A DNA stretch of 16,561 bases from assembly GCA_013330055.1 (NCBI GenBank), contig DUJB01000022.1, positions 7,364 through 23,924 on the forward strand, written 5' to 3'. Below the pieces are notes generated by a model that worked only from the letters and a program-made list of their open reading frames with translations, did no database searches and had not been told where the DNA came from. Made by a program: the position numbers and the translations under genes. Shown here piece by piece: positions 2 to 16,561 of the stretch. Source of the stretch: Nitrosopumilaceae archaeon (GTDB lineage: Archaea; Thermoproteota; Nitrososphaeria; Nitrososphaerales; Nitrosopumilaceae). Each line of letters begins with the position of its first letter. Position 1 is the first letter of the stretch.

Positions 2-3000
2 GATTCTGAAGCTCACGTTGTAATCAATGAGATAGATATTAATCCCCCTGGAAATGATTCAAAAAGCGTTTTTGAATGGATTGAACTATACAACCCTACT
101 GACACTGCGGTCGATTTGGGAGGATGGAAAATTGGTGCAACCAGTGGAATAAAAAAGACATACACAATAACAGAGGGCACGAAATTAAAGAGTGGAGGGT
201 TTGTTACTTTTTCTTATGGCCCACTATGGTTTCCCGATACTTCCTCAGTGATTCAACTAAAGGATAAAAATGGAGAAATTGTTGATTCGACTCCAACATT
301 AAGGGATATTGAAAACGGCCTCAAATCTTGGCAGAGGACTACAGATGGATTTGATACAAACTCTTTTACTGATTGGATTTTTAGAGCAGCAAACGCGGGT
401 TCATCAAACGGCAAGACTGGTTTTACCACAACAAACGAATTTCTATCAATAAACGTTTCAACTGACAAAACGATTTATGTTTCTGGTGATGTGGTAAAAA
501 TTAGTGGCGAAGTTTCAAAAAAAGTTACTTTGCCAGATCAAAAATATACTATACAACAAATACATCTCAAAATAACAGGACCACAAAATTTCAAAAAATC
601 CATTTCATTGTTCGCCGATAGAATGAATGCCTTTAAAACAGAAATGAAAACTGATATAGTCCTAAACGTACCAGAAGGTAATTACAAAGTTATTGCAGAC
701 TATGCAGGCGAGATTGCACAAACATCGTTTGTCATTTCCAAAAAAACCTCTGCTTCTCAAGAAATTGAATTATCACCAACAATCTCAATTGGTGTGGACA
801 AGTCAGTCTACCTACCAGGTGAAACAGCAATTCTTAGCGCTAATACATCAAAAATTGTTCCATTTGCAGGAATGAAATTCAAAATTTTCGATCCCAAACA
901 AAAACTAATCTATGATGGAACATTATATCCAGACACCAAAGGAAAATTCTCAACAAAATTTTTCATAAATTCAATCAAACCAGTCTTTGGAGAGTACAAT
1001 ATAGCTGCAACATATGACAAAGAAACAGCTCTGGCTTCATACCAACTAGTACCAGAAATTAAAGAAGATGTCATAATATCCTTATCCATAGACAAAAAGG
1101 TCTACGGACTAGGAGATGTTGTAACAATTAGTGGACGAAGCAACAAAGTCTGGGTTTCTTCTCTTGATCTAGAAATTGTACAATCCTATAAAAGCAAAGA
1201 TATCACCGATACCTTTGTTGTCAAGGATCTTCTCAGACTAGAAGGAGACGGCACCTTCAAATACGAATTCAAAATTCCAAACGACGAAAAACGATTTGGT
1301 GATTACAAAGTAAAGATATTCGGTGAAATCGGTTCTGCAGAAAGTTCCTTTAATGTAGTGGAAAATCCAAACGATTTTGTCGAATTAGAGTCAAAGCCAC
1401 TTTTGATTTCAACTGACAAAGAATCCTATAACATTGGTGACAAGATAGTTATCTTGGGCAAAGTAGCAGAAATAAAAAATTATGTAAGTCAAGTAGTGCT
1501 GATCTCGGTTGCTAACGCAGATGGGACACCAATAATTTCAAAAGCTGATCCTCGAGGGACTGCAGGTGACAAGGATGCAAGATATTCTTTTACTGGAATA
1601 CCCGATGCATCAGGAAATTTTGAGGTATCAAGTTCAATCTCAAGAAATATTTTTGCTAGCGGAAAATATATTCTAAAGGCAGTTTATGGCAATGACCATG
1701 CTTCCACTTCATTTGAGGTAAAGGATTCTCTTGACAGAAGTAGTGGGGTAGTAATTATTGCTTCTACAGATAAAGAGGTATACGGCGTGGGCGAAAAGGT
1801 AACACTAACAGGTGGTGTTTCCACCTTTACTGCTCAGTCATCCTACACCATACTGCTGACATATCCTAACGGCAAAACTACACAGGGTGGTGTAACACTT
1901 GATAAAGGGCAATTTTCATGGTCGTGGACAGTACCCTCGCGTGGCACTGTTTATGGGCTATACAAAATAACAGTACGCTCAGACTCGGATCAAACAAATG
2001 CATTCTTTAAAGTATCAAAAGATCCGGAATCAGAACCAAAATTACAGCCACTAATGATTGAAATTGACAAGGACGTATATCATAGCGGAGAAACTGTCAA
2101 TATTTCTGGTAGTGTGATAAAGGAAGTTTCTGGGACAGAAGGACTGGTTGTTAATCAAAAACCAGAAATTATAGTAAAAAATGAAAAAAACAAAGTAGTT
2201 TTCACAGCATCTCCAGATCTTGGTGCGGATGGTGGATTCAAAACCTCAGTAAAACTAGTTCCAGGTGTTTTTAAGACTGGACAATACAAAATATCTGCAA
2301 AATATTATAATGAAAAAGACCAGGCTGTTTTTAAAGTTGATGATAGATTCAATATCGGCCAAGACATTCCTCTAGTTTTACTTCTAGAAACTGATAAAGA
2401 AAAATATCTACCAGGAGAAACTGTTAAGGTATCGGGAAAAACAAGTAGGATAATATCAGTTTTTGATGTAGACGTGAAGATAACCAAAGATTATGTTTTA
2501 ATTTCTGATGCTACTGTGAAATTTGATGGGTTGGGTTCTTTCCACTTTGATTATGCCATTCCTCAAAATGAAAATCTTGGAAATTACACAGTAGAAGCTG
2601 ATACTGACTTTGACTCAACTACTGTTTTGTATGAAGTGGTAAATGAATTGCCGCCTGAGATAATTGCACCACCTGCAGATAAATCAACAACTGATACAAA
2701 CAAACCTGCTGTACCTAAGAAACTAACCGATGTAGTAAACAGGATCACAGACTCTTCAATCCCAATAACGGTTGAGGCAAAAGATGTTGGAGAAAAAATG
2801 TTTGTACCAACACTTGTTGAAGGAATACTACGTGTAAACGTAGGTGATGAATCCAAAGTGAACATTAAGGTGACCTCTGGTGACGGAACATGCCTTATAG
2901 GGCAAGACGATGATTGTAAAATAACAAAATCTACACGAGAAGGCAGCTCCTTGTATAAGATTGTTAAAGTAGGTGATACTGATCTTAAGATAAGATATAG

Positions 3001-3148
3001 CGGGCATGGAACAAAATTAGAAAAATTCACAATTTTGCCAGAAGGTAAAGATGGAACAATTCCTGAAGGTGACTGGAACGTGGAAATAATAAAAGACAAA
3101 CAAATTTCTAGATTCTACTACAAGATTTCATATACTTCTATAGAGTAA
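2..3148 (+). CDS. Large surface protein: lamin-tail-like domain plus seven Ig-like modules (5' end outside window)
   Basis: The frame is open from the first bases, so the gene starts upstream; 1,048 residues are visible. Residues about 6-140 look like a lamin-tail domain: 'VVINEIDINPPG', 'EWIELYNPTD', 'LGGWKIG', then 'SWQRTTDGFDT' and 'DWIF'. Seven modules of roughly 95-115 residues follow, each opening with a variant of DKxxYxxGexvxisG, at about nt 448, 784, 1075, 1403, 1750, 2050 and 2386. They resemble the macroglobulin-type (MG2-like) beta sandwich. A different C-terminal module (nt 2740-3145) has a close cysteine pair in 'GTCLIGQDDDC' and ends in 'RFYYKISYTSIE'. No transmembrane segment is visible; any signal peptide would be upstream. 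I infer an extracellular structural or adhesive role. Substrate and partners are unknown. The domain calls rest on motif recognition. A TTG at 116 could be read as a start, but the lamin-tail fold clearly begins before it. Confidence 0.85.
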   Translation, partial: DSEAHVVINEIDINPPGNDSKSVFEWIELYNPTDTAVDLGGWKIGATSGIKKTYTITEGTKLKSGGFVTFSYGPLWFPDTSSVIQLKDKNGEIVDSTPTLRDIENGLKSWQRTTDGFDTNSFTDWIFRAANAGSSNGKTGFTTTNEFLSINVSTDKTIYVSGDVVKISGEVSKKVTLPDQKYTIQQIHLKITGPQNFKKSISLFADRMNAFKTEMKTDIVLNVPEGNYKVIADYAGEIAQTSFVISKKTSASQEIELSPTISIGVDKSVYLPGETAILSANTSKIVPFAGMKFKIFDPKQKLIYDGTLYPDTKGKFSTKFFINSIKPVFGEYNIAATYDKETALASYQLVPEIKEDVIISLSIDKKVYGLGDVVTISGRSNKVWVSSLDLEIVQSYKSKDITDTFVVKDLLRLEGDGTFKYEFKIPNDEKRFGDYKVKIFGEIGSAESSFNVVENPNDFVELESKPLLISTDKESYNIGDKIVILGKVAEIKNYVSQVVLISVANADGTPIISKADPRGTAGDKDARYSFTGIPDASGNFEVSSSISRNIFASGKYILKAVYGNDHASTSFEVKDSLDRSSGVVIIASTDKEVYGVGEKVTLTGGVSTFTAQSSYTILLTYPNGKTTQGGVTLDKGQFSWSWTVPSRGTVYGLYKITVRSDSDQTNAFFKVSKDPESEPKLQPLMIEIDKDVYHSGETVNISGSVIKEVSGTEGLVVNQKPEIIVKNEKNKVVFTASPDLGADGGFKTSVKLVPGVFKTGQYKISAKYYNEKDQAVFKVDDRFNIGQDIPLVLLLETDKEKYLPGETVKVSGKTSRIISVFDVDVKITKDYVLISDATVKFDGLGSFHFDYAIPQNENLGNYTVEADTDFDSTTVLYEVVNELPPEIIAPPADKSTTDTNKPAVPKKLTDVVNRITDSSIPITVEAKDVGEKMFVPTLVEGILRVNVGDESKVNIKVTSGDGTCLIGQDDDCKITKSTREGSSLYKIVKVGDTDLKIRYSGHGTKLEKFTILPEGKDGTIPEGDWNVEIIKDKQISRFYYKISYTSIE

Positions 3149-3734: not shown

Positions 3735-6089
3735 ATGTCTACTGAAAAGTCATCATCAGGTCTTGTTCGCAGTCTCTCTCTACTAGATATAACTATGGTA
3801 GGAATTGCCGCAATGATCGGCGGCGCAATATTCGTACTGGTAGGTCCTGGTATGCATGAAGCAGGACCTGCTCTGATTATCGCTTTTTTGATAAACGGAA
3901 TAATTACTGTGTTCACAGCCCTGACATATGCTGAACTTGGTTCTGCATTACCTGAAGCTGGTGGAGGATACAAGTGGATAAGAGAGGGTCTTCCAAGGCC
4001 AAATGCATTCATCAGCGGTTGGATGGCATGGTTTGGTCACATGATTGCGGGAAGTCTATATGCTGTTGCTTTTGGCTCCTTCTTTGGTCATCTGCTTACT
4101 GTTACTGGGATCGCAGGTTTTCTTGGTGGTATTCCTCCTGATAAATTAATAGCAGTTCTTGTAATCATACTCTTTACTTACATTAATGTCAAAGGAGTTT
4201 CAGACACTGGAAAAATAGGTAACGCTATTACCTTTTCACAACTCGCTATTATTGGAATTCTTATTGTGGCAGGCTTGTTTGCAATGGCCTTTACAAATCC
4301 TAATTGGCCAACGAATTTTGAAGAATTTTTTCCAAATGGAAGTATTGGTTTGATTATTGCTATGGGTCTGACATTCATTGCGTTTGAAGGATACGAAATA
4401 ATAGTACAAACTGGTGAAGAAGTAAAAAATCCAAAAAAGAACATTCCTAGAGCAATTTTCATTTCATTAGGAGTTGTTGTAACTCTTTACATTGTATTTG
4501 CATTTGTATTCATTGGTGGTTTAAATTCAGCAGAAATTGGAAAAGCATCATGGCAGTTTATAGGTGAGCATAAAGAACTTGGAATAGCAGAAGGTGCAAA
4601 ATTTCTATTACCTTTTGGCGCTCTCATAGTTCTTGCAGGCGGACTCGTGTCAACCCTTTCTGCCTTAAACGCTACAACATTCTCATCAAGCAGAGTTGCA
4701 TTTGCAATGGGGAGGCAATACAATCTTCCTGTAAAATTTAGTACAATTCATCAAAGGTACAAAACACCATATTTTGCAACACTTGCATCTGGATTCATCA
4801 TGATAATCTTAGCGGTATTGTTACCCTTGGAACAAATTGCTTTAGCTGCAAGTGTGATGTTTTTGTTTCTCTTTGCTCAAGTCAACGTGGCGGCAATAAC
4901 AATCAGAAGACTCTATGGTCACAAACTTGACTATGGATTTAAGACTCCACTCTTTCCATTTTTACCACTAATTGGAGTTTTTTCTACGATAGGCTTAGCG
5001 ATATATCTTTTAATTTATAATCCGCTTAGCTGGCTAATTGCAATAATCTGGGTAATAATTGGGTTCTCAATTTACAAAGTGTACTCTATTAAAAAGGAAC
5101 TAGAACACTATGCACCATTAGTAGCAAGTGAAGGCCCACAAGAAAGGAAAGACTACCGTATAATGATCGTTTACCAACCATCTAGTGCAGAAAAGTTAGC
5201 AAAAATAGCTTCTGCCCTGGCACAAGATAAAGATGGTGAAATTCTATTTCTTAATGCGGTAATAGTTCCAATACAACTTCCTTTGTCTTCTGCCCAAGGA
5301 TTTGCAGAACCTGCTATGAAGTCTTTTGATGAATTAAAAAAAGTGCTGCCAAAATCTGTCGAGCATAGATATCTTGTAAGGCTTTCACATGATACTACTG
5401 AAGCCATACTTGCAACAGTTGAGGAGCAAGGAATTAATCTACTTATTATGGACTTTCATAGTCTACGGAGCAACAGAAAACTACTCTCCCTTACCACATG
5501 TGATATTATTGGAGTTAACATCAAAGAAAACTTTGAAAAGGAATTGGCAAACATTGTGGTGTCATATGATAAAGGAAGACATTCAAATCTTGGATTGGAA
5601 ATTGCAAATTCTGTCTCAAATTCATTAAACAGTAAAATACGAATTGTTAGGGGCGTTGTTGAATCTCCTGAAGAAGAACGTGACATTTTGGGTAGAATTA
5701 ATGAAAGGATGTTTGATCTTGACATGAAAAAAATTCCAGTAGAAAGAGTTTATTCACAAACAGATAATGTGACACAAAGTCTTCTCCAGAATTTTGACAA
5801 TGGAATACCAGAAATAATAATAATTGGAGCAGGGAATCAATCAGACCAAGCCTTTAGCCCAAAAACAATGGAGGTTATAGAAAAATCTCCAAAGACAGTA
5901 TTTGTTATACGTGATTCTAGGTTGTCAGGAATACAAGCTAGATATTTCTGGAATGTAATTGCACCTAGACTCAGAGAAAACCGATTTATTTATAGAATGT
6001 ATCTGGATGGTCTAAGGCTGATCTTTTTCATTAGAATGAAACGGGCAAAAGCTCGTTCTGATGAAGATTACTTTACACCAACAATGTAA
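3735..6089 (+). CDS. APC-superfamily amino acid/polyamine permease with C-terminal USP-like domains
   Basis: 784 residues. Residues about 15-450 form an APC-type transporter of about 12 membrane helices. The first helix carries the glycine-rich, unwound substrate-binding segment 'GIAAMIGGAIFVLVGPG' (23-39). 'TYAELGSALPEAGGGYKWIRE' follows helix 2, and 'FIAFEGYEIIVQTGEEVKNP' lies at about 214-233. It likely imports or exchanges an amino acid or polyamine across the cytoplasmic membrane; the substrate cannot be read from sequence. Residues about 473-597 and 604-728 look like two universal-stress-protein folds ('YRIMIVYQPS', 'NLLIMDFHS'; 'NIVVSYDKG', 'IIIIGAGNQS'). The Walker-like Gly-2x-Gly-9x-Gly-Ser/Thr ATP motif is not intact in either, so nucleotide binding is doubtful. 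A basic amphipathic tail ends the protein (737-784). The ATG at 3735 gives the usual short N-terminus before helix 1. It appears monocistronic, followed by the RNase P RNA gene. Confidence 0.88.
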   Translation: MSTEKSSSGLVRSLSLLDITMVGIAAMIGGAIFVLVGPGMHEAGPALIIAFLINGIITVFTALTYAELGSALPEAGGGYKWIREGLPRPNAFISGWMAWFGHMIAGSLYAVAFGSFFGHLLTVTGIAGFLGGIPPDKLIAVLVIILFTYINVKGVSDTGKIGNAITFSQLAIIGILIVAGLFAMAFTNPNWPTNFEEFFPNGSIGLIIAMGLTFIAFEGYEIIVQTGEEVKNPKKNIPRAIFISLGVVVTLYIVFAFVFIGGLNSAEIGKASWQFIGEHKELGIAEGAKFLLPFGALIVLAGGLVSTLSALNATTFSSSRVAFAMGRQYNLPVKFSTIHQRYKTPYFATLASGFIMIILAVLLPLEQIALAASVMFLFLFAQVNVAAITIRRLYGHKLDYGFKTPLFPFLPLIGVFSTIGLAIYLLIYNPLSWLIAIIWVIIGFSIYKVYSIKKELEHYAPLVASEGPQERKDYRIMIVYQPSSAEKLAKIASALAQDKDGEILFLNAVIVPIQLPLSSAQGFAEPAMKSFDELKKVLPKSVEHRYLVRLSHDTTEAILATVEEQGINLLIMDFHSLRSNRKLLSLTTCDIIGVNIKENFEKELANIVVSYDKGRHSNLGLEIANSVSNSLNSKIRIVRGVVESPEEERDILGRINERMFDLDMKKIPVERVYSQTDNVTQSLLQNFDNGIPEIIIIGAGNQSDQAFSPKTMEVIEKSPKTVFVIRDSRLSGIQARYFWNVIAPRLRENRFIYRMYLDGLRLIFFIRMKRAKARSDEDYFTPTM

Positions 6090-6115
6090 TTTAACACACA
6101 GATAGTATTAACAAT

Positions 6116-6125
6116 CTTAAAATAG
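6116..6125 (+). promoter_or_regulatory. Candidate TATA element of the RNase P RNA gene
   Basis: The A/T-rich 'cttaaaatag' is centred about 28 nt upstream of the predicted RNA 5' end at 6149. It lies in the 59-nt gap after the permease stop codon. The position suits a primary transcript that starts at the mature 5' end. Confidence 0.35.
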
Positions 6126-6148
6126 AAATTTTTACTTTGTATTTACAA

Positions 6149-6429
6149 GTGCGAGCTGGTGCACGAGCTACTGCTAAGGCAGAGGAAACTCCTCCCTCCA
6201 TGCAGTAAGTGTGATCCAGAGATGGATAATCAGAGATGGTTGGCTCCAGAACAGAAAAAGATCTGACCCGGCGTACTATGATGGCAAAACCTGAGGTTTC
6301 CGGCAAAGAATGAAAGAGCTGCCCCACACGGAGCAAGGCCAAACAAAACTATAAGGACTGCACTTTGTTTAGGTAGGCCGCATAGCTGAATCTCGTAAAA
6401 ACAGAAGGAGGGTTACGGCTGGCACGCAC
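6149..6429 (+). ncRNA. rnpB: RNase P RNA (archaeal type)
   Basis: Catalytic RNA of ribonuclease P, which removes the 5' leader of tRNA precursors. The ends come from helix P1: 6149-6156 pairs with 6422-6429 (one A-A mismatch). The conserved 'gaggaaactcc' begins at 6182, and 'acagaa' at 6401 is followed by 'ggagggtta'. These form P4 with its hallmark bulged U: A6187-A6188-C6189 pair with G6412-T6413-T6414, T6190 is bulged, and 6191-6195 pair with 6407-6411. The core segment 'gagcaaggccaaaca' (6331-6345) matches the archaeal/bacterial consensus. The length, about 281 nt, is normal. Only about 25 nt lie between P1 and the P4 strand, so P2/P3 must be short; I could not fold them confidently. An 83-codon open frame on the other strand here is not a gene. 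The RNA ends 11 nt before the stop codon of the convergent gene. Confidence 0.93.
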
Positions 6430-6432
6430 TAA

Positions 6433-6446
6433 CTTTTATTTTATTG
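6433..6446 (+). terminator. T-rich tract, probable RNase P RNA terminator
   Basis: 'cttttattttattg' begins 4 nt after helix P1. Runs of T on the coding strand are the usual archaeal termination signal. The tract overlaps the stop codon (6441-6443) of the convergent gene, so the two 3' ends share these bases. Confidence 0.45.
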
Positions 6447-7499
6447 GCCTCTTTGTTTTTTGAGCTTTCTATCGCTCCATACTAAAACAAAGACTGCAAC
6501 AGCACCACCCATGGCTGCCATTCCGTACATTACACCTACTGGAAATCCTCCAGTAGAAGTTGTTGCATAACCTTCTGGTACTTTGGGACTAGAGCCAAAG
6601 TATTCTGCCTCATCTACTGTAACATCAGTAACAAATCCGTCTATTGAAATAGTTGCAGAATTTGCTGACTCTACTGTTCTAATTACATATTTTTTATCAG
6701 TGGTAAACTCTACCTCTTTTTCTTTCTCAGTTTGAATTCCTTCTCTTAGGCTACTTTCACCCATGGTAAAACTTGTAATTACTAATTTCTCTTTGTATCC
6801 CCACTTGGCTGTTTCTGAAATTGTTCCAGACGGATCAAAGAGATGATGCCAGTTGGAAAGCGGTTGAGACAATATTCCACTTGCATCGATCAAACTATCA
6901 TTCAAAAGAGTTTCCCCTTCTGTACCTAATATTTTTTCATAGACTTCAGGAACCTCTTTCTTTAAGAACCCTGTCAATGTATTAATATCGACATCACCAT
7001 GCTCTGCATCTGTTATTGTTACTGGCCCCTTTACTGTTATTCCTCTCCAATGAGAGTCAATAAGAGCTGAATTTGTATCGTCTGCTGGACGTAAAAGATA
7101 GTTTGTCATTGTGGGTACGAGGGTTACTTTATAATCTACTGCAGCTTGTCCACCCTGACCCTGGATATGAGCTCTATATGTTAACTTCAAATCAGTAACA
7201 AAAACAGTGCTGTCTATACTTTGTAAATTAGAATTCATTTTTTGTATGAGTTCAGAAACACCTGGGGTGTCTTTGTCTGCCTCGATACTTACCAAAACAT
7301 CCTCACCGTTCAATAATTCTGAAATTTCTCCTCCATCTGGATATTCTATAAAGACTGTCTTTAAGAATTTGAAAGTAGGTTGTACCTCAGTTAGATGTGT
7401 GCTTAGTCTTGCATCGAGTTGAGCTGCCCAAATAGGGGAAATGCTACCAATAACTAAAAGGCCAATTAATCCAACTGAGAAAATCAGACTTCTTGACAC
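6441..7499 (-). CDS. Secreted, C-terminally membrane-anchored protein of unknown function
   Basis: 352 residues. I do not recognise the family. Residues 1-25 are a clear Sec signal peptide (basic start, hydrophobic core, 'ISPIWA' cleavage-like end). Residues about 26-315 form a hydrophilic, presumably extracytoplasmic region of mixed predicted strand and helix, without cysteines. Recognisable stretches include 'KTVFIEYPDGGEI', 'AAVDYKVTLVPTMTNYLL' and 'SNWHHLFDPSG'. A transmembrane helix at about 320-341 is followed by the basic tail 'DRKLKKQRGQ', placing the C-terminus in the cytoplasm. The start is GTG at 7499-7497; 'atttatta' (complement of 7523-7530) lies 24-31 nt upstream, supporting a leaderless GTG start. 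The gene stands alone, divergent from cofD. The topology suits a surface-exposed anchored protein, perhaps lineage-specific. Confidence 0.85.
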   Translation of the reverse strand: MSRSLIFSVGLIGLLVIGSISPIWAAQLDARLSTHLTEVQPTFKFLKTVFIEYPDGGEISELLNGEDVLVSIEADKDTPGVSELIQKMNSNLQSIDSTVFVTDLKLTYRAHIQGQGGQAAVDYKVTLVPTMTNYLLRPADDTNSALIDSHWRGITVKGPVTITDAEHGDVDINTLTGFLKKEVPEVYEKILGTEGETLLNDSLIDASGILSQPLSNWHHLFDPSGTISETAKWGYKEKLVITSFTMGESSLREGIQTEKEKEVEFTTDKKYVIRTVESANSATISIDGFVTDVTVDEAEYFGSSPKVPEGYATTSTGGFPVGVMYGMAAMGGAVAVFVLVWSDRKLKKQRGQ

Positions 7500-7520
7500 G
7501 GGGAAACTGCTTTTGCTGAG

Positions 7521-7530
7521 TGTAATAAAT
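7521..7530 (-). promoter_or_regulatory. Candidate TATA element of the anchored orphan protein gene
   Basis: Read on the minus strand this is 'atttattaca', 22-31 nt before the GTG start. The spacing suits a leaderless transcript and supports the GTG as the true start. Confidence 0.45.
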
Positions 7531-7554
7531 CTTCTTTTTCAAAATGTATTGGTT

Positions 7555-7586
7555 TAATAATTTGAGGTCATCTAGCAAAATTATTA
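7555..7586. repeat. 9-bp inverted repeat between divergent genes (candidate operator)
   Basis: TAATAATTT (7555-7563) and AAATTATTA (7578-7586) are perfect inverted copies separated by 14 nt. Their half-site centres are about 23 nt apart, near two helical turns. They lie between the divergent starts at 7499 and 7629. This could bind a dimeric regulator, but A/T richness makes chance occurrence plausible. Confidence 0.35.
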
Positions 7587-7598
7587 TTGTGCATGTAT

Positions 7599-7608
7599 CT
7601 TCATAAAC
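7599..7608 (+). promoter_or_regulatory. Weak candidate TATA element of cofD
   Basis: 'cttcataaac' lies about 21-30 nt before the cofD ATG at 7629. It is a weaker match than the other elements in this window and is chosen mainly on spacing. Confidence 0.28.
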
Positions 7609-7628
7609 AAATCTTGGTGAACTAGAAA

Positions 7629-8549
7629 ATGATAACAATACTTGCTGGTGGAACCGGTTCTGTGAAACTTGTTCGTGGAATTTCTTCACAAACAAGAGAC
7701 ATCAATGTTATATCAAACGTCGGTGACAACTACTGGCTTTACGGCCTGTATGTATGTCCTGACATAGATACGATTCTTTATGGACTTGCTGACTTGCTTG
7801 ATATCGACAAAGGCTGGGGAATAAAAAAAGACACTTTTGGATTTTTACGTCAAATGGAAATACTTGGGGAAGAAACTTGGTTTAAGATTGGTGATAGAGA
7901 TGTTGCAACTCATCTTCTAAGAACTAACATGCTAAAAAATGGCAAAAATCTAACCGATATTACTGCTTGGATGTGTCAAAAATTTGCAATTGATACTAAG
8001 ATAATTCCTGTAACAGACAATAGTGTTGAAACAAGAATTGTGACAAACAAAGGCGAACTTCACTTGCAAGAATACTGGGTAAAATACAGGGGTCAAGACA
8101 AAGTAGATGGAATAAAATATCTTGGTGCTGACAAGGCACGCGCAAATCCTGCAGCAGTTAATGCGATCCATGATGCAAAGTTGGTTGTAATTGCGCCAGG
8201 TAATCCACTTACTAGTATAGGGCCTATTTTGTCTATTAAAGGAATTAAGAAGGAACTTTCAAAATCAAAAAAGAAAGTTGTTGTTGTGAGTCCGCTTGTT
8301 GGTAACAAAGCAATTAGTGGCCCTGCCGTAAAGTACATGGAAGCAGCAGGAATGGAAGTTTCTGCTTATGGACTTGCCAAGATGTATTCAGAAGTTGCAT
8401 CACATATGGTAATAGATTCATCAGATCGATTACTTACAAGAAAGATCGAAAACCTAGACATGCATGTGTATGAAACTAAAATAAAAATGAAAGACAAAAT
8501 TGAAGAAGATGCACTTGCTTCATTTATTCTAAAACAAATGCATGTCTAA
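7629..8549 (+). CDS. cofD: CofD, 2-phospho-L-lactate transferase (coenzyme F420 biosynthesis)
   Basis: 306 residues, normal for CofD/FbiA. In the family the enzyme transfers the phospholactyl (or phosphoenolpyruvyl) group from the GDP-activated donor made by CofC to the deazaflavin Fo, giving F420-0 or its dehydro form, in the cytoplasm. Family blocks in order: 'ILAGGTGSVKLVRG' (4-17), 'NVGDN' (30-34), 'CPDIDTILYGLA' (43-54), 'WFKIGDRD' (84-91), 'IAPGNPLTSIGPIL' (188-201), 'VVVVSPLVGNKAISGPA' (217-233) and 'GLAKMYSEVASHMVID' (248-263). The motif usually ending in two aspartates reads GDN here. The ATG at 7629 sits immediately before the first beta strand, as expected. cofC overlaps the last 8 nt, so the two steps of the pathway are translated from one mRNA. 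Confidence 0.95.
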   Translation: MITILAGGTGSVKLVRGISSQTRDINVISNVGDNYWLYGLYVCPDIDTILYGLADLLDIDKGWGIKKDTFGFLRQMEILGEETWFKIGDRDVATHLLRTNMLKNGKNLTDITAWMCQKFAIDTKIIPVTDNSVETRIVTNKGELHLQEYWVKYRGQDKVDGIKYLGADKARANPAAVNAIHDAKLVVIAPGNPLTSIGPILSIKGIKKELSKSKKKVVVVSPLVGNKAISGPAVKYMEAAGMEVSAYGLAKMYSEVASHMVIDSSDRLLTRKIENLDMHVYETKIKMKDKIEEDALASFILKQMHV

Positions 8550-9174
8550 TTTTAGAACTGCAGCGATAGTTCCTGTAAAAACTTTTTCAAGGGCTAAAAA
8601 GCGACTTAACCTTTCTCCTGAAAAAACTGAGATTATCTGCAAGTTAATGCTAGAGGAGGTCCTAAGTACGATTTCAAAATCTAATCTAATAGAAAAGACT
8701 GCGCTTGTAACTAAAGATGAAGCGGCGTTTGCTATTGGGAAAAGATTTGGGTGCATAGAAATCATAGACGAAAAAGAATTGGGAGTAAATAATGCGGTCT
8801 CTTTGGCAGATGGATATTTTCTAAATGATGGGTTTGACGCTTCATTTGTGTTCCCTCAAGATATACCAATAATGCAACCAGATGATATCCAGACTTTGTT
8901 TAATTTTAAAAATTCTCAAAAATGCGCGCTTGTTGTTCCTTCAAGAAAGTTTGATGGTACAAATGCTTTATTTCGTACTCCTGTAAATTTAATGAAAACA
9001 CACTACGATGAAGACAGCTACAAAATTCATCTTAGTACAGCACAGGAAATCGCAGCTTCATCAGCACTTGTTTTAATAAGAAGAATCATGCTTGATGTAG
9101 ACGAGGTATCTGATCTACAATACATTTCAAAATATGTCAAACCTTCGATTTTAAAAATAATTCAAGATTTGTAA
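8542..9174 (+). CDS. cofC: CofC, 2-phospho-L-lactate guanylyltransferase
   Basis: 210 residues, the usual size. CofC joins GTP with 2-phospho-L-lactate (or phosphoenolpyruvate in other lineages) to form the GDP-linked donor used by CofD, releasing pyrophosphate. It has a nucleotidyltransferase fold of the MobA type. Visible signature: 'AAIVPVKTFSRAKKRLNLSP' (7-26) for GTP binding, 'GVNNAVSLADGYF' (81-93), 'FVFPQDIPIM' (103-112), 'VPSRKFDGTNALF' (131-143), 'YDEDSYKIHLSTAQE' (154-168) and a C-terminal 'MLDVDEVSDL'. The ATG at 8542 lies inside the end of cofD (8-nt overlap, different frame) and leaves room for the first strand; no other start is credible. The stop codon is 1 nt from that of the convergent CPBP protease gene. 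Confidence 0.92.
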   Translation: MSNFRTAAIVPVKTFSRAKKRLNLSPEKTEIICKLMLEEVLSTISKSNLIEKTALVTKDEAAFAIGKRFGCIEIIDEKELGVNNAVSLADGYFLNDGFDASFVFPQDIPIMQPDDIQTLFNFKNSQKCALVVPSRKFDGTNALFRTPVNLMKTHYDEDSYKIHLSTAQEIAASSALVLIRRIMLDVDEVSDLQYISKYVKPSILKIIQDL

Positions 9175-9175
9175 G

Positions 9176-10165
9176 TTATAACAATGCAGTCTGTTCTTTT
9201 TTTGATTTAAAATAATTTAAGATGAAAATAATTATAGCTAATGTTCCTGAGATCAAAAATAAAACTTCAAGTGTGTTAAGAAATGGATTTGATGTTTCGT
9301 TTAAAGGTTGATTCATGTCCGACATGAAAAAAATATATGAAAATATAAAATAATTTGTTGCCCAATGAAGTAAAATCGCTGGAGCTAAACCATGTCTGAC
9401 ATAAACCCATCCTATTATTACCCCACTTATAGCGGCTTGAGCAAACTTACCTGTACTCCATGGCGAACCAGAAATTATGTGTGCCGCTCCAAAAAATATT
9501 CCGACTACAATGACTAGACCTAATACTTTTTTGTAATTTGTAATTTCTAGATTCTGTGAGGGATGCCATAATGACTTGACGAAATTTCCAATTGATATTT
9601 TTGTGGCAAACATTGCAAAAAGTGGTAAACCAATAAGAAACATCCTAAATCCTATTTCTTCAATTAATGGTGACTCTGTTATGAGAAAAAACTGAATTAA
9701 CTTGTTTTTTACTTCTGGTGGTTCTACAAATATTCCAAAACTTTGTTGTATAGAATCTATAATAACAGACACTACAATTAAGATTGAAAACCAAGTTAGC
9801 ATACCAAGAAGATAATTATTTTTTATATTGTGCAACCCATCACTTATTAGAGAAGAAAGCGCGTGAGAAAAATTAGTTTTAGGACCAAAAATAGAGACTG
9901 CAAACAAAACCAGATAAACACACCATACTATAATGAAACCATCACCTAGCTCGAATTGAATGGGAATCTTTAGGCCTATCCCAGCAATAAAAACATCAAT
10001 GCCATCAATAGGAAAATCAAAAATTATTTCCTTGCCGATGTCTGAATTAAAAACTACATATGCTCCGATAGGAAAGGAAACTATCATCAACCCAAATATC
10101 ACTGATGTTAATGCAGAATATGGCGTGCAAAGAGCTTTGAAGAGTTTATCGCTTCGCAAATCCAC
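9176..10165 (-). CDS. CPBP family intramembrane metalloprotease (Rce1-like)
   Basis: 329 residues with about eight predicted membrane helices. The catalytic signature of the CPBP (CAAX protease and bacteriocin-processing, Rce1-related) family is complete: E169-E170-x3-R174 in 'ESPLIEEIGFRMFLIG', F225-x3-H229 in 'FFGAAHIISG', and H267-x3-N271 in 'HWATNY'. These glutamates and histidines form the glutamate-type active site inside the membrane. The substrate is unknown; archaeal members are mostly uncharacterised. The N-terminal ~160 residues hold extra helices, including an extracytoplasmic loop around 40-75. The GTG start (10165-10163) overlaps the last base of the aIF1 TAG stop as TAGTG, which implies translational coupling. 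No promoter is visible of its own, so it should be expressed with aIF1. Confidence 0.9.
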   Translation of the reverse strand: MDLRSDKLFKALCTPYSALTSVIFGLMIVSFPIGAYVVFNSDIGKEIIFDFPIDGIDVFIAGIGLKIPIQFELGDGFIIVWCVYLVLFAVSIFGPKTNFSHALSSLISDGLHNIKNNYLLGMLTWFSILIVVSVIIDSIQQSFGIFVEPPEVKNKLIQFFLITESPLIEEIGFRMFLIGLPLFAMFATKISIGNFVKSLWHPSQNLEITNYKKVLGLVIVVGIFFGAAHIISGSPWSTGKFAQAAISGVIIGWVYVRHGLAPAILLHWATNYFIFSYIFFMSDMNQPLNETSNPFLNTLEVLFLISGTLAIIIFILNYFKSKKEQTALL

Positions 10166-10473
10166 TAATGAACTTCTATGCTAGACTCAGGAAATCCTAA
10201 CTTTACCAAAGTTCCCTTGATTGTATCTCTATGGTCTCCTTGAAGAAGTATGTAACCATCTTTTACCGTGCCACCACACGCATACTTCGCTTTTAACTCT
10301 CTTACTACTTTATCAAGATCATTCATCTTTGGATTTACTCCTTCGATCATGGTTCCTTTCTTTTTAAATCGTCTTTCTTCTATACGAACAACAATCTGAG
10401 TTGCATCTTTTTCAAGTTCCCCACAGGCGCATAAATCATTAGGAAGTCCGCATGTATTGCAGATAACCGCCAT
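10165..10473 (-). CDS. Translation initiation factor aIF1 (SUI1 family)
   Basis: 102 residues, the normal size. aIF1 binds near the P site of the small ribosomal subunit and helps select the start codon. The N-terminus carries the archaeal zinc-knuckle-like cysteines C5, C8, C15 and C17 ('CNTCGLPNDLCAC'). The SUI1 core then follows: 'IVVRIEERRFKKKGTMIEGV', 'KVVRELKAKYACGGTVKDG' and 'YILLQGDHRDTIKGTLVKLGF'. The ATG at 10473-10471 precedes the cysteine motif directly. A candidate TATA element lies 25-32 nt upstream, in a 78-nt region shared with the divergent SSSCA1-like gene. The CPBP protease gene begins on the last base of its stop codon. Confidence 0.95.
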   Translation of the reverse strand: MAVICNTCGLPNDLCACGELEKDATQIVVRIEERRFKKKGTMIEGVNPKMNDLDKVVRELKAKYACGGTVKDGYILLQGDHRDTIKGTLVKLGFPESSIEVH

Positions 10474-10497
10474 TCAAAATAAAAAGTCGCTTTCCCA

Positions 10498-10505
10498 CTA
10501 TTAAG
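10498..10505 (-). promoter_or_regulatory. Candidate TATA element of the aIF1-CPBP operon
   Basis: Read on the minus strand this is 'cttaatag', 25-32 nt before the aIF1 ATG. The spacing fits a leaderless mRNA. The divergent gene starts only 78 nt away, so the two promoters must lie side by side. Confidence 0.4.
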
Positions 10506-10551
10506 CCTTGTCCGTATCTATCTTTTTTACTTGGACTTGCAAACAAGATTT

Positions 10552-10869
10552 ATGTCAAAGGATCTTACCAAAAAAGCTGTAGAGATGCTCCTTAAAGGTG
10601 CCACTCTAATAAGCGATCCATGTCCTTACTGTAAAGGGGTTCGAGTAATGAAAAATGGCCATGCACTTTGTGTAAATTGTGGTAGAGAAGCAAAAGAAGA
10701 AGACGTTCCTGTTCAGGAAAAAACTGAAAATACCCCCTTTACCAAATTTGAACAAAAACTAAAGGAACTCTATGAGGAACTTGAGCATGAAAAAGATCAC
10801 CAAAAACAACAGCAGATAATGAAATCAATAACAGATTTAATGGCATTAATAGAGAAACTCAAAAAATAA
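10552..10869 (+). CDS. SSSCA1/UPF0148-type zinc-ribbon protein with C-terminal coiled coil
   Basis: 105 residues from the ATG at 10552. An upstream TTG at 10531 is in frame, but the family typically begins close to 'KKAVEMLLKGATLIS', and the ATG gives exactly that. Residues 6-45 hold the characteristic helix, then a four-cysteine zinc ribbon, 'CPYC' and 'CVNC' separated by 'KGVRVMKNGHAL'. The segment from about 66 to the end ('KFEQKLKELYEELEHEKD', 'MKSITDLMALIEKLKK') is a predicted coiled coil. The family is named after the human Sjogren/scleroderma autoantigen 1; I know of no defined archaeal function. It lies upstream of Sec61-beta and DUF2070, but Sec61-beta has its own TATA-like element, so shared transcription is uncertain. 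Confidence 0.85.
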   Translation: MSKDLTKKAVEMLLKGATLISDPCPYCKGVRVMKNGHALCVNCGREAKEEDVPVQEKTENTPFTKFEQKLKELYEELEHEKDHQKQQQIMKSITDLMALIEKLKK

Positions 10870-10878
10870 CACAAAAAG

Positions 10879-10890
10879 TATTTATGTAAA
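10879..10890 (+). promoter_or_regulatory. Candidate TATA element of the Sec61-beta/DUF2070 operon
   Basis: 'gtatttatgtaa' includes 'tttatgta' at 10881-10888, 25-32 nt before the ATG at 10913. It is one of the clearer promoter-like elements here. It supports the ATG at 10913 rather than the in-frame GTG-type start at 10895 for Sec61-beta. Confidence 0.5.
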
Positions 10891-10912
10891 AATCTTGCCC
10901 TCCAAGACAACC

Positions 10913-11077
10913 ATGGCTAGCAAGAAATCTGCACCTCTGCCTGCATCAAGCGCCGGTCTTTTGAGGTTCTTTGAGGATGAAACTAAGGGATATCGTGTAC
11001 GACCTGAGATAGTAGTATCTATCCCGACCAGTTTGATTGTAGTCTCTTGGATTCTAAAATTGTTCTTCCTACCATGA
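10913..11077 (+). CDS. Preprotein translocase Sec61-beta subunit (archaeal SecG)
   Basis: 54 residues, typical of the archaeal small translocon subunit. It is a single-span, tail-anchored protein peripheral to the SecYE channel. The N-terminus 'MASKKSAPLPASSAGLLRFF' is the usual flexible, positively charged cytosolic segment. 'EDETKGYRVRPEIVVSIPTS' corresponds to the conserved 'E-E-x-G-hydrophobic-K-hydrophobic-P-E' region before the membrane helix at about 33-53. The start is set at the ATG at 10913: it begins at the conserved N-terminus and sits 25-32 nt after a TATA-like box. The final TGA overlaps the ATG of the DUF2070 gene (ATGA, 11074-11077). Confidence 0.92.
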   Translation: MASKKSAPLPASSAGLLRFFEDETKGYRVRPEIVVSIPTSLIVVSWILKLFFLP

Positions 11078-12810
11078 CTGAAAACGCTGACAATGTCTCC
11101 AATATTCATAGGAGATACTCACTGACTCTGCTTACTCCTTCTTCTCCACATCTTTCCCTTTTTGTTTCCGTTGTTGTTGCATCAATACTTGTACTATTGG
11201 CAGAGCTTGCATATTTTGAAAACTATGACAAGTTTTTCATACATCTGTTTGTAACAATAGGTGTACTACTTTCCACACAAATTATTGATGCTCATCTTTT
11301 ACATACAGAAAAATCCAAAGTTAGACACGTTTCAGGATTTGGAAGTCTTTTATGGCTTGTAACAGCATTAGGTGGTTTAATTTCTGTACCTTTATTTTCT
11401 AAGCCAGAACTTTTGCCAATATATCTTACTGAAGGGATGTTTTTGTTTGCAAGTTTTAGAATAGGGATATTTACTTCAGTTATTGGTGCAAAAGTAAAGC
11501 TGGCTTGGGCGATATGCTTGATGCAACCCCTTGCAATGTTTTTTGTTATTGTTCCATATCAGTTTTGGATTCCAATGCTTACTGACTTGCAAGCAATTGG
11601 ATATGGAATTATCTTTTTGACAGTGGGAACAATTTGGACTATAATAACAGACAGAGCCGGTGGTCCCAAAGTTCCAAGCACACATAAGGTATTACAAGCA
11701 TACGTTGCAGCATGGACACGGAATAATCCTTCTGAGATGGAACGTCTAATAGAGGAACGTTCTCAACCATCCAAAGTTTCAACATTTCAAATTAGATTCA
11801 AGACAAAAGACAATGAGTTTAGGCTCGTTTTACCAGACGTTCACCCAGGACCGTTTCATCCAATAGGTGGAAGTAACATTCCATATCAGATATACAAAAA
11901 CCTAAACTCATCTGCAATGGTGATGCACAGCATTTCTGATCATTCTCTTAACTTGCCATCAAAATCTCAAGTTGATACTTACTTGGCTAGCTTTGCAAAT
12001 AGTTCTGTCTTTGATCGGGGCAACAAATGTACAAAACCAGTTACCGTCCAGGTAAATAATGCAAGAACGGTTGGCCTGTTGTTTGACAAGACAGCGGTTC
12101 TCATATTGTCGTTATCTCCGCACGGAATGGAAGATGTTCCACTTTATGTAAAAAATGAACTAGATCAATATGCGACAAATCGTGGCTTTGACAAACTCTT
12201 AATTGTTGATAGCCACAACGCAATGGGAGAAGAAATATCGCCAACTGATGCTGATGATCTTTTCAAAGCCGCAAAATCAAACCTTGATACATTGATAACA
12301 AAAGAAACCTTACCACTAGAAATTGGATTTGCAAACTTGGAAAATCAAAAAATTCTTGCAGATGACCTTGGACCTGGTGGCATTGGAATCTTGTGCATGA
12401 AAATAGGAGATGAGAAATTCTTTCTTGGATGGTCAGACTCTAATAACATGCAAAATGGCGTTCGTGAAGAAATTGTAAACTCCCTTTCAAAAAATGGATA
12501 CAACTTGATTGAAATGTGCACATCTGACACTCACTTTAAAACAAAAGAGGCAAGAAACAAACACGGTTACTTTACATTTGGTAGCCTGTCTACGCCTCAA
12601 GACGCATCCTCTTGGTATCTAGATCTGGCTAAAAAAGCAGAACAGAACATTTCCGAGGCTTCATTTGAAGCACTCCAACATCAAACAGATGTTAAGATCA
12701 TGGGAACCACACTTCTTGAAGATTATTCAAAATCGCTTGATCGTACAATGAGAATAACGCAGGCTTTTTTGATAGGAACTACCATCTTCTTTTTCTTAAC
12801 TATGTTCTAA
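11074..12810 (+). CDS. DUF2070 family membrane protein
   Basis: 578 residues from the ATG at 11074. This ATG overlaps the Sec61-beta stop as ATGA, so I prefer it to an in-frame upstream TTG at 11047. Residues about 25-200 contain roughly six or seven membrane helices. A large soluble domain (about 210-555) follows, and a last membrane helix ('QAFLIGTTIFFFLTMF') ends the protein. The soluble domain shows conserved-looking acidic/histidine motifs: 'LPDVHPGPFHPIGGSNIP' at about 251-268, 'MHSISDHSLNLPS' at about 284-296 and 'DSHNAMGEE' at about 379-387. DUF2070 is archaeal and, as far as I know, uncharacterised. The clustered Asp/His residues suggest a metal-dependent hydrolase, which is inference. 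Coupling to Sec61-beta suggests a role in membrane biogenesis or export. The last 15 nt overlap the convergent nuclease gene. Confidence 0.85.
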   Translation: MTENADNVSNIHRRYSLTLLTPSSPHLSLFVSVVVASILVLLAELAYFENYDKFFIHLFVTIGVLLSTQIIDAHLLHTEKSKVRHVSGFGSLLWLVTALGGLISVPLFSKPELLPIYLTEGMFLFASFRIGIFTSVIGAKVKLAWAICLMQPLAMFFVIVPYQFWIPMLTDLQAIGYGIIFLTVGTIWTIITDRAGGPKVPSTHKVLQAYVAAWTRNNPSEMERLIEERSQPSKVSTFQIRFKTKDNEFRLVLPDVHPGPFHPIGGSNIPYQIYKNLNSSAMVMHSISDHSLNLPSKSQVDTYLASFANSSVFDRGNKCTKPVTVQVNNARTVGLLFDKTAVLILSLSPHGMEDVPLYVKNELDQYATNRGFDKLLIVDSHNAMGEEISPTDADDLFKAAKSNLDTLITKETLPLEIGFANLENQKILADDLGPGGIGILCMKIGDEKFFLGWSDSNNMQNGVREEIVNSLSKNGYNLIEMCTSDTHFKTKEARNKHGYFTFGSLSTPQDASSWYLDLAKKAEQNISEASFEALQHQTDVKIMGTTLLEDYSKSLDRTMRITQAFLIGTTIFFFLTMF

Positions 12811-13613: not shown

Positions 13614-16076
13614 ATGAAACTCTTTCTAATAGTGATACTGGCTATCTTTGTTTTTGGTTCAGTTGTTGCTTTTGCTGATAAAGGAACTTTTGTTGATAAA
13701 GTGCAGTTTATCCAATACGTGGACGAAAACACAGCACTAGAAGAAGTGAGAAATGGAAACTTGGACATCTATTATTATAGAGTCTCTTCGGACAGAATTG
13801 AGGACGCTAAATCAAGAGAAGGACTGAACGTATTCCAGTCGACAGGTGGATCTTTTAGTATTCTTGTAAATCCAGCCACCTCTGATAAATTCAATCCATT
13901 CTCATTACATGAGGTAAGATTTGCACTTAATTATCTGATCGACCGAGAATTGATTGTAAACGAATTTCTTGGAGGGTATGGTACTACCATGATATCAGCA
14001 TACAATCCGTTTGATCCCGATTATCTTCTTGTCTTAGAGGAACTTGAATCATTTAACTTTAGATACAATCCTAAACTTGCAGAAGAAATGATTTCTAATG
14101 CTCTTGTCACATCTGGGGCTGAAAAAATTGATGACAAGTGGTTTTATGATTCAAAACCAATTGAGGTAATAATTTTTATCAGAAGTGATGATCCAGTACG
14201 AAAATCAATTGGGGAAATTCTTTCATCGCAATTAGAGAAATTTGGGTTTACAGTGAAAAAAGATTTTGGGGATCTTAACAAGGCTTTTTCTATAGTTTAT
14301 GGAAGCGATCCTGCTGAACAAAAATGGAATATCTACACTGAAGGATGGGCAGGAAGATCTGCGTTTGTAAAATATGACTCACTTGTAACTGCTCAGATGT
14401 ATTCTCCATGGTACTGTAACATGCCGGGATTTTGCAATCCATCATACTGGAATTATAAAAATGATACAATTGATTCTTTATCGATGAATGTTTTCAATGG
14501 TAACTTTACATCTGCCCAGGAACGTGCGGATCTTTTAAAACAAGCAACAAACATGGGAGTAAAAGAATCTGTAAGGATATTTCTTGCAAGCAAAATTGAT
14601 CAATATGTTTCAAATGATAGAATTAGAGGAATAGTAAATGACTTTGGTGCTGGGGTACCAAGCAGATTCACACCAATAAATGTAAAAAGTGATTCTGATT
14701 TTGTAAAAATTGGAGTAAAACAGATCTACCAAGGCGCATGGAATCCGATAGGTGGATTAAGCGATCTTTACAGCAGGGCAATATGGGATAATGTTTCTGA
14801 ACCTTTGATATTCAAACATCCATACACCGGGGTTAGTATTCCAATTAGGACACAATGGCATGTTGAGGCGCCAGGACCTACTGAAAAACTTGTAGTTCCA
14901 GAAGATGCAATAAAGTGGAATTCTACCCAACAAAGTTGGATCAAAGTAGGAAAAGGAAATCAAGCTACCACCAAGGTAACATTTAATCTAAAGTTTAGCA
15001 ACTGGCACAATGGTCAACCAATGGACATGAATGATCTCATGTATTCGATTTATTTTTTGTATGAATGGACGTGTGAGACAGAGGAAGATAAGACATGTGA
15101 TTCTGAATATTCATCCAAAGCCTACCAGGCTGCACAAACGCTTGTTGGAGTAAGGGTGATTGACAAGGATACCATCGAAGTCTATCAAAATTATTGGCAC
15201 TTTGATGAGGCAGAGATTGCAGATTCTGCAGGAGTGTGGGCAAGTATGCCTTGGGAGATAATGTTTGCAATGGAAAAATCTGTCACTGATGGCAAAGCCG
15301 CATTTTCAAGATCAAATGCTATTGGTAATGACGTTGAATGGCTTTCGTTAATTGTGCCAGATGATGCAAACATGATAAAATCAAATCTTGAAGAATTCAA
15401 ACAATCAAATTTTGTTCCACCAGCACTTGCAACTTTTGAATCTGATCCTTCATACTATGATTCAAGATATGATTCCTCAATATCATGGATTGCGCAAAAA
15501 AATCATGCAATAATTAGCAATGGCCCGTTTTATCTTGAGAATTATTCGCCTGAAGCAAGAACTATTACGATTCATGCTTTTGATGATCCAACATATCCAT
15601 TTGAGGCAGGATACTGGAAAGATTTTGCAAACGTAAAACTTTCTAAAATAAATCATGTTGAAATACCCGACGTTATATCAATAGGAAAAGAAATAACAAT
15701 TCCTGTTTTTGTTAATGACGAATCTACAATTTACTATTATTTTATTAATGCTGACAACAAAGTTGTTGCGTCAGGAACAAAAAAATCTGAGAATAACAAA
15801 ATCGATATTATATTATCAAAGGATAAGACCGCACTTTTTAGCGTAGGCGCAAACGACTTGAAGATATTTTCCGTATCGGATTCTGCATTGAGACCTGACA
15901 TATTTCGCACTAGCTTTTTGGGGATAAAAGGCGAATACACTGCACCTCCTGAAAGATTGAATATTGAATCAGAAATTTTGTCTGTGGAGCAGGACTATGT
16001 TATGCCAGTAATTGTAATTATTGCAATAATCATAGGAATTTTCATTGTACTAAAAAGAAAAAGGAGACAACAATAG
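13614..16076 (+). CDS. Peptide/nickel-type ABC substrate-binding protein, apparently circularly permuted, membrane anchored
   Basis: 820 residues, longer than the usual 500-600. Residues 1-21 are a signal peptide. Residues about 27-355 match the C-terminal part of the SBP_bac_5 fold: 'ALEEVRNGNLDIYYYRV', 'HEVRFALNYLIDRELIVNEF', 'YNPKLAEEMI', 'ILSSQLEKFGFTVKKD', 'TEGWAG', 'RADLLKQATNMGVKESVRIF'. Residues about 363-670 match the N-terminal part: 'AWNPIGGLSDLYSRAIWDNV', 'EPLI', 'KVTFNLKFSNWHNGQPMDMN', 'VRVIDKDTIEV', 'ISNGPFYLENYSPEARTITI'. The two halves are therefore in reverse order. A beta-rich segment (about 680-765) and a membrane helix (about 795-813) with 'KRKRRQQ' follow, so the protein is tethered outside the membrane. 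It captures a peptide-like or other solute for the permease beginning 36 nt downstream. The ATG start is fixed by the signal peptide. Confidence 0.9.
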   Translation: MKLFLIVILAIFVFGSVVAFADKGTFVDKVQFIQYVDENTALEEVRNGNLDIYYYRVSSDRIEDAKSREGLNVFQSTGGSFSILVNPATSDKFNPFSLHEVRFALNYLIDRELIVNEFLGGYGTTMISAYNPFDPDYLLVLEELESFNFRYNPKLAEEMISNALVTSGAEKIDDKWFYDSKPIEVIIFIRSDDPVRKSIGEILSSQLEKFGFTVKKDFGDLNKAFSIVYGSDPAEQKWNIYTEGWAGRSAFVKYDSLVTAQMYSPWYCNMPGFCNPSYWNYKNDTIDSLSMNVFNGNFTSAQERADLLKQATNMGVKESVRIFLASKIDQYVSNDRIRGIVNDFGAGVPSRFTPINVKSDSDFVKIGVKQIYQGAWNPIGGLSDLYSRAIWDNVSEPLIFKHPYTGVSIPIRTQWHVEAPGPTEKLVVPEDAIKWNSTQQSWIKVGKGNQATTKVTFNLKFSNWHNGQPMDMNDLMYSIYFLYEWTCETEEDKTCDSEYSSKAYQAAQTLVGVRVIDKDTIEVYQNYWHFDEAEIADSAGVWASMPWEIMFAMEKSVTDGKAAFSRSNAIGNDVEWLSLIVPDDANMIKSNLEEFKQSNFVPPALATFESDPSYYDSRYDSSISWIAQKNHAIISNGPFYLENYSPEARTITIHAFDDPTYPFEAGYWKDFANVKLSKINHVEIPDVISIGKEITIPVFVNDESTIYYYFINADNKVVASGTKKSENNKIDIILSKDKTALFSVGANDLKIFSVSDSALRPDIFRTSFLGIKGEYTAPPERLNIESEILSVEQDYVMPVIVIIAIIIGIFIVLKRKRRQQ

Positions 16077-16112: not shown

Positions 16113-16561
16113 ATGAGCTTCAAACGATATCTTCTGACTAGGGCAGTAACGATGTTTGGAGTTCTAATGGCTACGCTTCTAGTTACAATAGCGCTTGTTG
16201 GCTCTAATATGGATGCCATTTTAAAACAAAGCGTGACCTTTGAAGTAAGACAGCAAGTCACTGACAATAAACAATTGGTTGCTAGCTTTGCAAGTCCAGA
16301 CGAACTTGATTCTTTTATAACCGCCCAGATTGAACAGAGAATCAAGGTACTTGGTCTGGATGAACCTTGGTATTCGCCACCAAGACTAGGTCTAACAATG
16401 TACAAAATTTTACTCCTTGATTTTGGCCATGCAACATTTCTTACAAGCGATTCTGGTTCCTCTGATGTCAAAGACATTTTGCTTGAAAAACTTCCACGAA
16501 CGATTTTACTTTTTACTACTGCAACCATAATTGTTTCTTTGATTGGAATATTTCTTGGTGC
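16113..16561 (+). CDS. ABC transporter permease, DppB/OppB type (3' end outside window)
   Basis: 149 codons are visible before the window ends. The product begins 'MSFKRYLLTRAVTMFGVLMA', with a first membrane helix at about 10-30. An extracytoplasmic stretch follows with 'EQRIKVLGLDEPWYSPPR', then 'MYKILLLDFGHATFLTS', 'DVKDILLEKLPRTILLFTTA' and a second membrane helix ending 'GIFLG'. These match the DppB pattern: 'LGLDxP', 'DFGxS', then 'V...I...LPxT' before helix 2. The protein forms half of the membrane channel that passes the solute delivered by the binding protein upstream. The ATG at 16113 is the first that gives the complete N-terminal helix. A four-codon frame (ATG at 16102, stop TGA at 16114-16116) overlaps it. 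A 147-codon open frame on the opposite strand (16085-16528) is a shadow of this gene. Confidence 0.9.
   Translation, partial: MSFKRYLLTRAVTMFGVLMATLLVTIALVGSNMDAILKQSVTFEVRQQVTDNKQLVASFASPDELDSFITAQIEQRIKVLGLDEPWYSPPRLGLTMYKILLLDFGHATFLTSDSGSSDVKDILLEKLPRTILLFTTATIIVSLIGIFLG

Follow-up and report, generated by a model that had tools for sequence, protein, structure and literature searches.

The stretch of archaeal DNA analysed here (16,561 nucleotides from a Nitrosopumilaceae contig, hereafter the window) encodes a substrate-binding protein in which sequence blocks that normally lie late in the chain seem to come first. This raises the question of whether the protein is a circular permutant of the SBP_bac_5 family, as the initial annotation proposed, and how its arrangement relates to that of binding proteins elsewhere in the Thermoproteota.

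Gene and protein layout

The binding-protein gene is an open reading frame of 820 amino acids at window positions 13614-16076 on the forward strand, and all of its features lie on this strand. Its product starts with a putative signal peptide (residues 1-22, 13614..13679), read from a hydrophobic core followed by AFADKG and modelled as a helix at residues 2-15. The later part of a canonical SBP_bac_5 protein follows (residues 26-355, 13689..14678), and a junction that fills the gap between the matched parts (residues 356-362, 14679..14699) then joins the natural C-terminus to the natural N-terminus. This junction is similarly short in close relatives and longer in some distant ones. The earlier part of a canonical protein occupies residues 363-675 (14700..15638), and a beta-sandwich domain (residues 676-774, 15639..15935) separates the binding body from a putative C-terminal transmembrane anchor (residues 795-815, 15996..16058; helix 796-819 in the model) with a basic tail. 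The signal peptide ahead of the later part had been recognized in the initial annotation, and the residues before 26 indeed read as one; of the extent it proposed (13614..15625), the start holds, while the end leaves the beta domain and the membrane anchor outside.

A dppB-like permease gene, named by sequence reading and context, follows at 16113..16561 (+) and is interrupted by the window end. Right after window position 16561, inside dppB, the contig has undetermined bases (about position 8925 of our longer locus L054; X in the ORFs), and the ORFs beyond the window include a dppC-like gene after the dppB-like one (L054 9407-10762; sequence reading). Elsewhere in the window, positions 2-3148 encode a large surface-type protein, open at the window start, whose recurrent 'D+..Y..G' motifs resemble repeated beta domains, and positions 7629-9174 hold an adjacent gene pair that we take to be cofD- and cofC-like genes of F420 synthesis.

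Reversed order of the two parts

The whole protein matches the Pfam model PF00496 (SBP_bac_5) with 109.5 bits (E 2.6e-31), well above the curated cut-off of 32.4 bits, and does so in two stretches. The best of these aligns residues 27-249 with model positions 148-350, and the second aligns residues 452-686 (92-326 of the second half, P0003, plus 360) with model positions 16-158. A PF00496 search of the genome gives the same reversed order of pieces. Searched singly, as the initial annotation had recommended, the halves return model positions 148-350 in the first (E 3.4e-26) and 16-158 in the second (E 6.2e-6), the latter at 26.0 bits and thus below the cut-off; membership in SBP_bac_5 is given by the whole-protein score.

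Comparison with solved structures leads to the same picture. Against PDB sequences, the first half (residues 30-279) matches 7fi3 325-597 with an E-value of 8.2e-24, and the second half (residues 371-663) matches 7fi3 18-310 with an E-value of 5.9e-35. A PDB search with a profile built from 20 permuted relatives also places 7fi3 on top (E 1.9e-97, in two stretches), and, among the 40 matched sequences listed, the best stretch of each sequence lies within one part.

Because significant matches lie on both sides of the junction with the pieces swapped, the order is reversed, and this reversal is confirmed as real and far beyond chance; the claim that later-type blocks come first and earlier-type blocks second is borne out by the PF00496 order and by the 7fi3 matches on either side of the junction. 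Both SBP_bac_5 parts are present, once each, and each has the cluster C fold, but the canonical cluster C order, with the earlier part ahead of the later, is absent. Since each part occurs once, we see one permuted protein and not a tandem pair; neither a profile alignment in normal order nor two complete tandem proteins, the outcomes that would have spoken against the initial annotation, was seen. An assembly error is ruled out by the presence of the same order in one-contig genomes of several families. Profile order, the closest solved relative, the predicted structure and the relatives described below thus support a binding protein that is circularly permuted relative to its canonical relatives.

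Predicted structure and position of the cut

The full chain is modelled with a pLDDT of 83.6 and a pTM of 0.77, and the second part with 86.6 and 0.81, respectively. In structure searches with these models, 7fi3 matches a single part each time (TMq 0.32). Beyond 7fi3, most of the top rows for the second model are matches to the beta domain; among the top rows listed, the matches for the body are SBP_bac_5-type proteins, as judged by their titles. Segment 23-360 of the model matches residues 207-507 of Escherichia coli DppA, which agrees with a permutation.

This match also bears on where the chain has been opened. We take domain I of DppA to comprise residues 1-260 and 479-507, and by these limits the first segment would contain the second lobe, flanked by the end of domain I on one side and by the C-terminal tail of that domain on the other. 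Given these limits and the match of segment 23-360 to DppA 207-507, the new chain ends, with a cut at about DppA 206/207, probably lie inside domain I, and their placement in the linker between the lobes by the initial annotation is probably wrong. As such, the permutation is not a clean exchange of two lobes. A plausible origin is a duplication after which the outer halves were lost; the only footprint of such an event at the cut is, in some proteins, an overlap of about 10-20 model positions, too weak for use.

Conservation among relatives

A search of the relatives of the window's own genome finds a match in 50 of 61 genomes, own genome included, and a survey of related archaeal proteins, as had been proposed, returns the same order in two sets of loci. 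Specifically, all 65 fetched loci with both parts are permuted (56 distinct sequences; copies of the window and repeats are included in the 65), as are all 80 named loci, which are the best 80 of 250 relatives among the 254 stretches found in a scan of named genomes. Both sets were collected by similarity to the window's protein and represent its relatives, not a sample of all binding proteins. Titles among the best 80 include Nitrosotalea, Nitrosopumilus, Nitrosarchaeum, Nitrosotenuis, Marine Group I and others. With a permuted profile, one collinear match across the junction (a single match from model position 120 or below to 640 or above) is found in 90 of 120 genomes of the class and in 88 of 151 Thermoproteota genomes. 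On these counts (65/65, 80/80, 90/120 and 88/151), the permuted arrangement is old and fixed.

In the window's genome (77.6% complete), PF00496 finds no SBP_bac_5 ORF other than this gene. Among 13 genomes of the same taxonomic family (f1), 12 have exactly one such ORF, and no such gene was found in the remaining one (G093, near-complete). A record titled Gammaproteobacteria bacterium BBSC-SA02 (L137) carries an archaeal-type gene that is 55% identical, possibly from a mislabelled or mixed assembly.

Permuted families across Thermoproteota

The survey of chain order covers Thermoproteota genomes and bacterial plasmids, together with named controls for which no order is shown. PF00496 yields 71 rows in 58 ORFs of 18 Thermoproteota genomes. 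Within the model, 27 of these ORFs are contiguous and canonical, 13 have both pieces with the later first, 17 show just the later piece (some of these are short frames, and one is G199, canonical on other evidence) and 1 has another arrangement. In two of the 27 (G171 and G192), the permutation lies past the end of the Pfam model.

At least four cut points (A, B, D and E) occur in the phylum. Cut A lies at about DppA 206/207 and cut B before the C-terminal segment; presumably, by the DppA domain limits given above, cut D is near the hinge and cut E inside the second lobe. The window's family (family I) consists mostly of frames of about 800-1100 amino acids and has canonical-order relatives in 7fi3 and L148/L149. 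Family II has frames of 675-940 amino acids, with Pfam E-values down to 3e-69. In family III-A (seven proteins, L221-L227) the cut is at about place A and the examined members have an N-terminal helix, and in family III-B (three proteins, L218-L220) the C-terminal segment has moved to the front. The closest pair between the two, G169 and G171, is 60% and 59% identical in the two pieces, and other III-A pieces give 39-60%. Cut D is found in L243 and L244, with an N-terminal membrane helix in the examined members, and cut E in L260, from one complete genome.

Several further observations concern individual loci. L199/L209 and L212/L221 are homologues (up to 60% identity) with two different cuts, in which the N-terminal helix and a Thr/Pro-rich linker are unmoved. 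The complete genome G045 (L260 1-8001, L261 and L262) encodes several permuted SBP_bac_5 proteins, and in L260 the boundary between the matched pieces falls at local model positions 363/364. L046 contains one 2102-aa frame (4820-11125, -) that unites FG-GAP repeats and an SdrD_B domain with a permuted SBP_bac_5 body and with Peripla_BP_6/ANF_receptor (type I binding) domains in two stretches each, giving two different binding folds on one surface protein. Similarly, a 1094-aa frame in L048 carries a permuted body and one Peripla_BP_6/ANF_receptor-type domain.

Among bacterial plasmids, the P0001 query gives partial matches only, in 49 records. A family II query matches 2369 records, and in 4 of the 30 listed a single place covers at least 80% of the query. 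One of those four (H41) was read, and the five bacterial proteins read for order are all canonical.

History of the permutation

Trees were built after all sequences had been put into canonical order, and in these families I, II, III and D are separate. Within family I (rows from 48 hand-picked loci), the canonical L148/L149 group with the permuted L150, L151 and L179 (100/99), and the permuted L167 falls between the L148/L149 group and 7fi3 (100/96). Trees of each part repeat the placements of L148/L149, L150/L151/L179, L167 and 7fi3, and disagree on other branches (L049, L162 and L165). An arrangement with all permuted rows of family I on one side of a branch (44 rows versus 3) is rejected by an AU test (P = 2.96e-5) that used one model on sequences of uneven composition.

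When rooted with five bacterial rows, one of which falls outside the others, families I and II group with two G045 proteins in one clade (support 94), to which the three canonical family I rows also belong, and the tree requires at least seven order changes. These trees rest on quick support values and hand-picked rows, with uneven composition and long branches (L260). As near-copies or long branches, 13 of 105 rows were dropped from the first tree, 19 of 100 from the rooted tree, and L186 ahead of the family I tree; L177, in which the local profile found no earlier part, was left out of the trees, and L131 was too short for the alignment of the second model.

Canonical rows nested among permuted ones could reflect either a return to canonical order or several independent cuts at one place, and because family I lacks a fixed root, a return is just one reading. 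Overall, the Thermoproteota family seems to have undergone permutation more than once, with cuts at several places. A broader proposal is that cluster C surface binding proteins in this phylum have repeatedly evolved by permutation and continue to do so, with at least four cut points, two or more independent cuts at A (families I/II and III-A), permutants with differing cuts that are up to about 60% identical, and canonical order regained at least once inside a permuted clade (L148/L149, perhaps also the Thermococcus OppA). We put this forward tentatively, with our own judgement evenly divided.

Alternative explanations

Could the window's protein instead be two tandem binding proteins, or fused halves of two, each lacking a part and folding as separate domains? 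The family does fuse binding domains, since in L048 and L046 the permuted body is followed by Peripla_BP_6/ANF_receptor domains, but here the two parts together span about 660 residues, against 732 in 7fi3, and a single chain is predicted with a pTM of 0.77. Tandem proteins are rejected because each part is found once and trees of the two parts give the same key placements, despite differences in other branches, and we regard this explanation as scarcely credible. It is also quite improbable that the permutation is genuine and the active form a domain-swapped dimer, in which the first part packs on the second part of another chain. The short junction and the altered chain path permit such a form, and swapped elements are reported for circularly permuted constructs of ribose-binding protein (PMC10601554); against it stand the same pTM for a single 820-residue chain and the bridging of the natural ends by about 8 residues, as we would expect if they were adjacent in the fold.

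The initial annotation also hinted that the membrane anchor explains the permutation, and an adaptation of chain order to a C-terminal anchor would suit the window's protein and family II members L173, L174, L175 and L178, where the permuted body leads into a tail that contains a hydrophobic helix at the C-terminus. Tethering is likewise suggested by the authors of work on Treponema TpMglB-2 for their own case (PMC4990184). However, in permuted families III-A, III-B and D the examined members carry their helices at the N-terminus, ahead of a linker or beta domain, L202 of family II is permuted without such a C-terminal helix, and the canonical-order L148 has one. As a general cause, an anchor is thus unsupported, and we consider the adaptation unlikely.

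Genomic context and function

In the window's contig, dppB and dppC, as identified by sequence reading, lie downstream of the binding-protein gene, and the genome has two oligo_HPY ATPase genes, adjacent to each other on another contig, as a dppD/dppF-like pair. Among 75 named relatives, a dppB match lies next to the gene in 24 (by a distance rule) and overlaps the gene end in 2 more (L080 and L081); in the other 49, the same dppB query finds no adjoining match. A dppC match lies nearby in 25 of the 67 named relatives with room for one, and elsewhere the query finds none. Two oligo_HPY matches occur in each of 6 genomes, with one partial match in G019.

We conclude, at a probability of about 0.9, that the gene encodes a circularly permuted substrate-binding protein of a Dpp/Opp-type (cluster C, SBP_bac_5) ABC importer with one bilobed body. 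With export and removal of the signal peptide, residues 26-355, the canonical later part, would be made first, and the chain would then pass through a short loop into residues 363-675, the canonical earlier part, followed by the beta-sandwich spacer and the C-terminal membrane helix. Both parts may pack, within one chain, as an ordinary bilobed venus-flytrap body whose cleft would take up a peptide-like ligand and pass it to DppB/DppC, powered by the DppD/DppF ATPases. Peptides are the likely ligand class by family, and 7fi3 holds a pentapeptide. The permuted form probably works in this order, because it is the sole candidate binding protein for the transporter (12 of 13 f1 genomes).

Comparison with known systems and implications

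Among solved structures, 7fi3 gives the best match to both parts, whether compared by sequence or by model; it is the archaeal oligopeptide permease A of Thermococcus kodakarensis (OppA, 732 aa, with an endogenous pentapeptide) and falls inside family I in the trees. It has canonical order, whereas the window's protein puts 7fi3 325-597 first and 18-310 second. Compared with E. coli DppA and bacterial cluster C proteins, the chain starts at the equivalent of DppA 207, and it ends with an extra beta domain and membrane helix that DppA lacks.

A search of open-licence papers found no report of a permuted SBP_bac_5 or cluster C binding protein, nor of a permuted archaeal one, and few natural circular permutants of ABC binding proteins. 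Treponema TpMglB-2 (Tp0684) is described as a naturally permuted glucose-binding protein of 'Type Ic / Cluster Bc', a cluster that also covers its bacterial kin, with tethering raised as a possible reason (PMC4990184). Like the window's protein, it is a natural, tethered ABC binding-protein permutant with a reordered N-lobe, but it is bacterial, belongs to the sugar-binding cluster B and has had that lobe's first three strands relocated to the end (PMC4990184); its permutation is most likely a separate event from the archaeal one. The CPSARST report treats glycine-betaine-binding proteins, molybdate-binding proteins and CysB as a circular-permutation family, which likewise links binding-protein folds by permutation, but that family is structure-based, with less than 24% identity, and is neither one sequence family nor cluster C (PMC2395249). 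The window's protein is SBP_bac_5 by sequence and not canonical cluster C by topology, and by TpMglB-2-style naming it would be 'Cluster Cc'.

Natural permutation of an ABC binding protein is therefore already known from TpMglB-2, and the larger point is that it is common and seemingly recurrent in Thermoproteota, with one cluster C family permuted through much of a phylum. Because local profile matches ignore order, automatic annotation can hide such arrangements, and models that assume canonical order would have the wrong chain path. The multiple cuts, nested canonical members and pairs with up to about 60% identity amount to a natural experiment on how permutations arise, one that could show how permutation affects folding, export, anchoring and docking.
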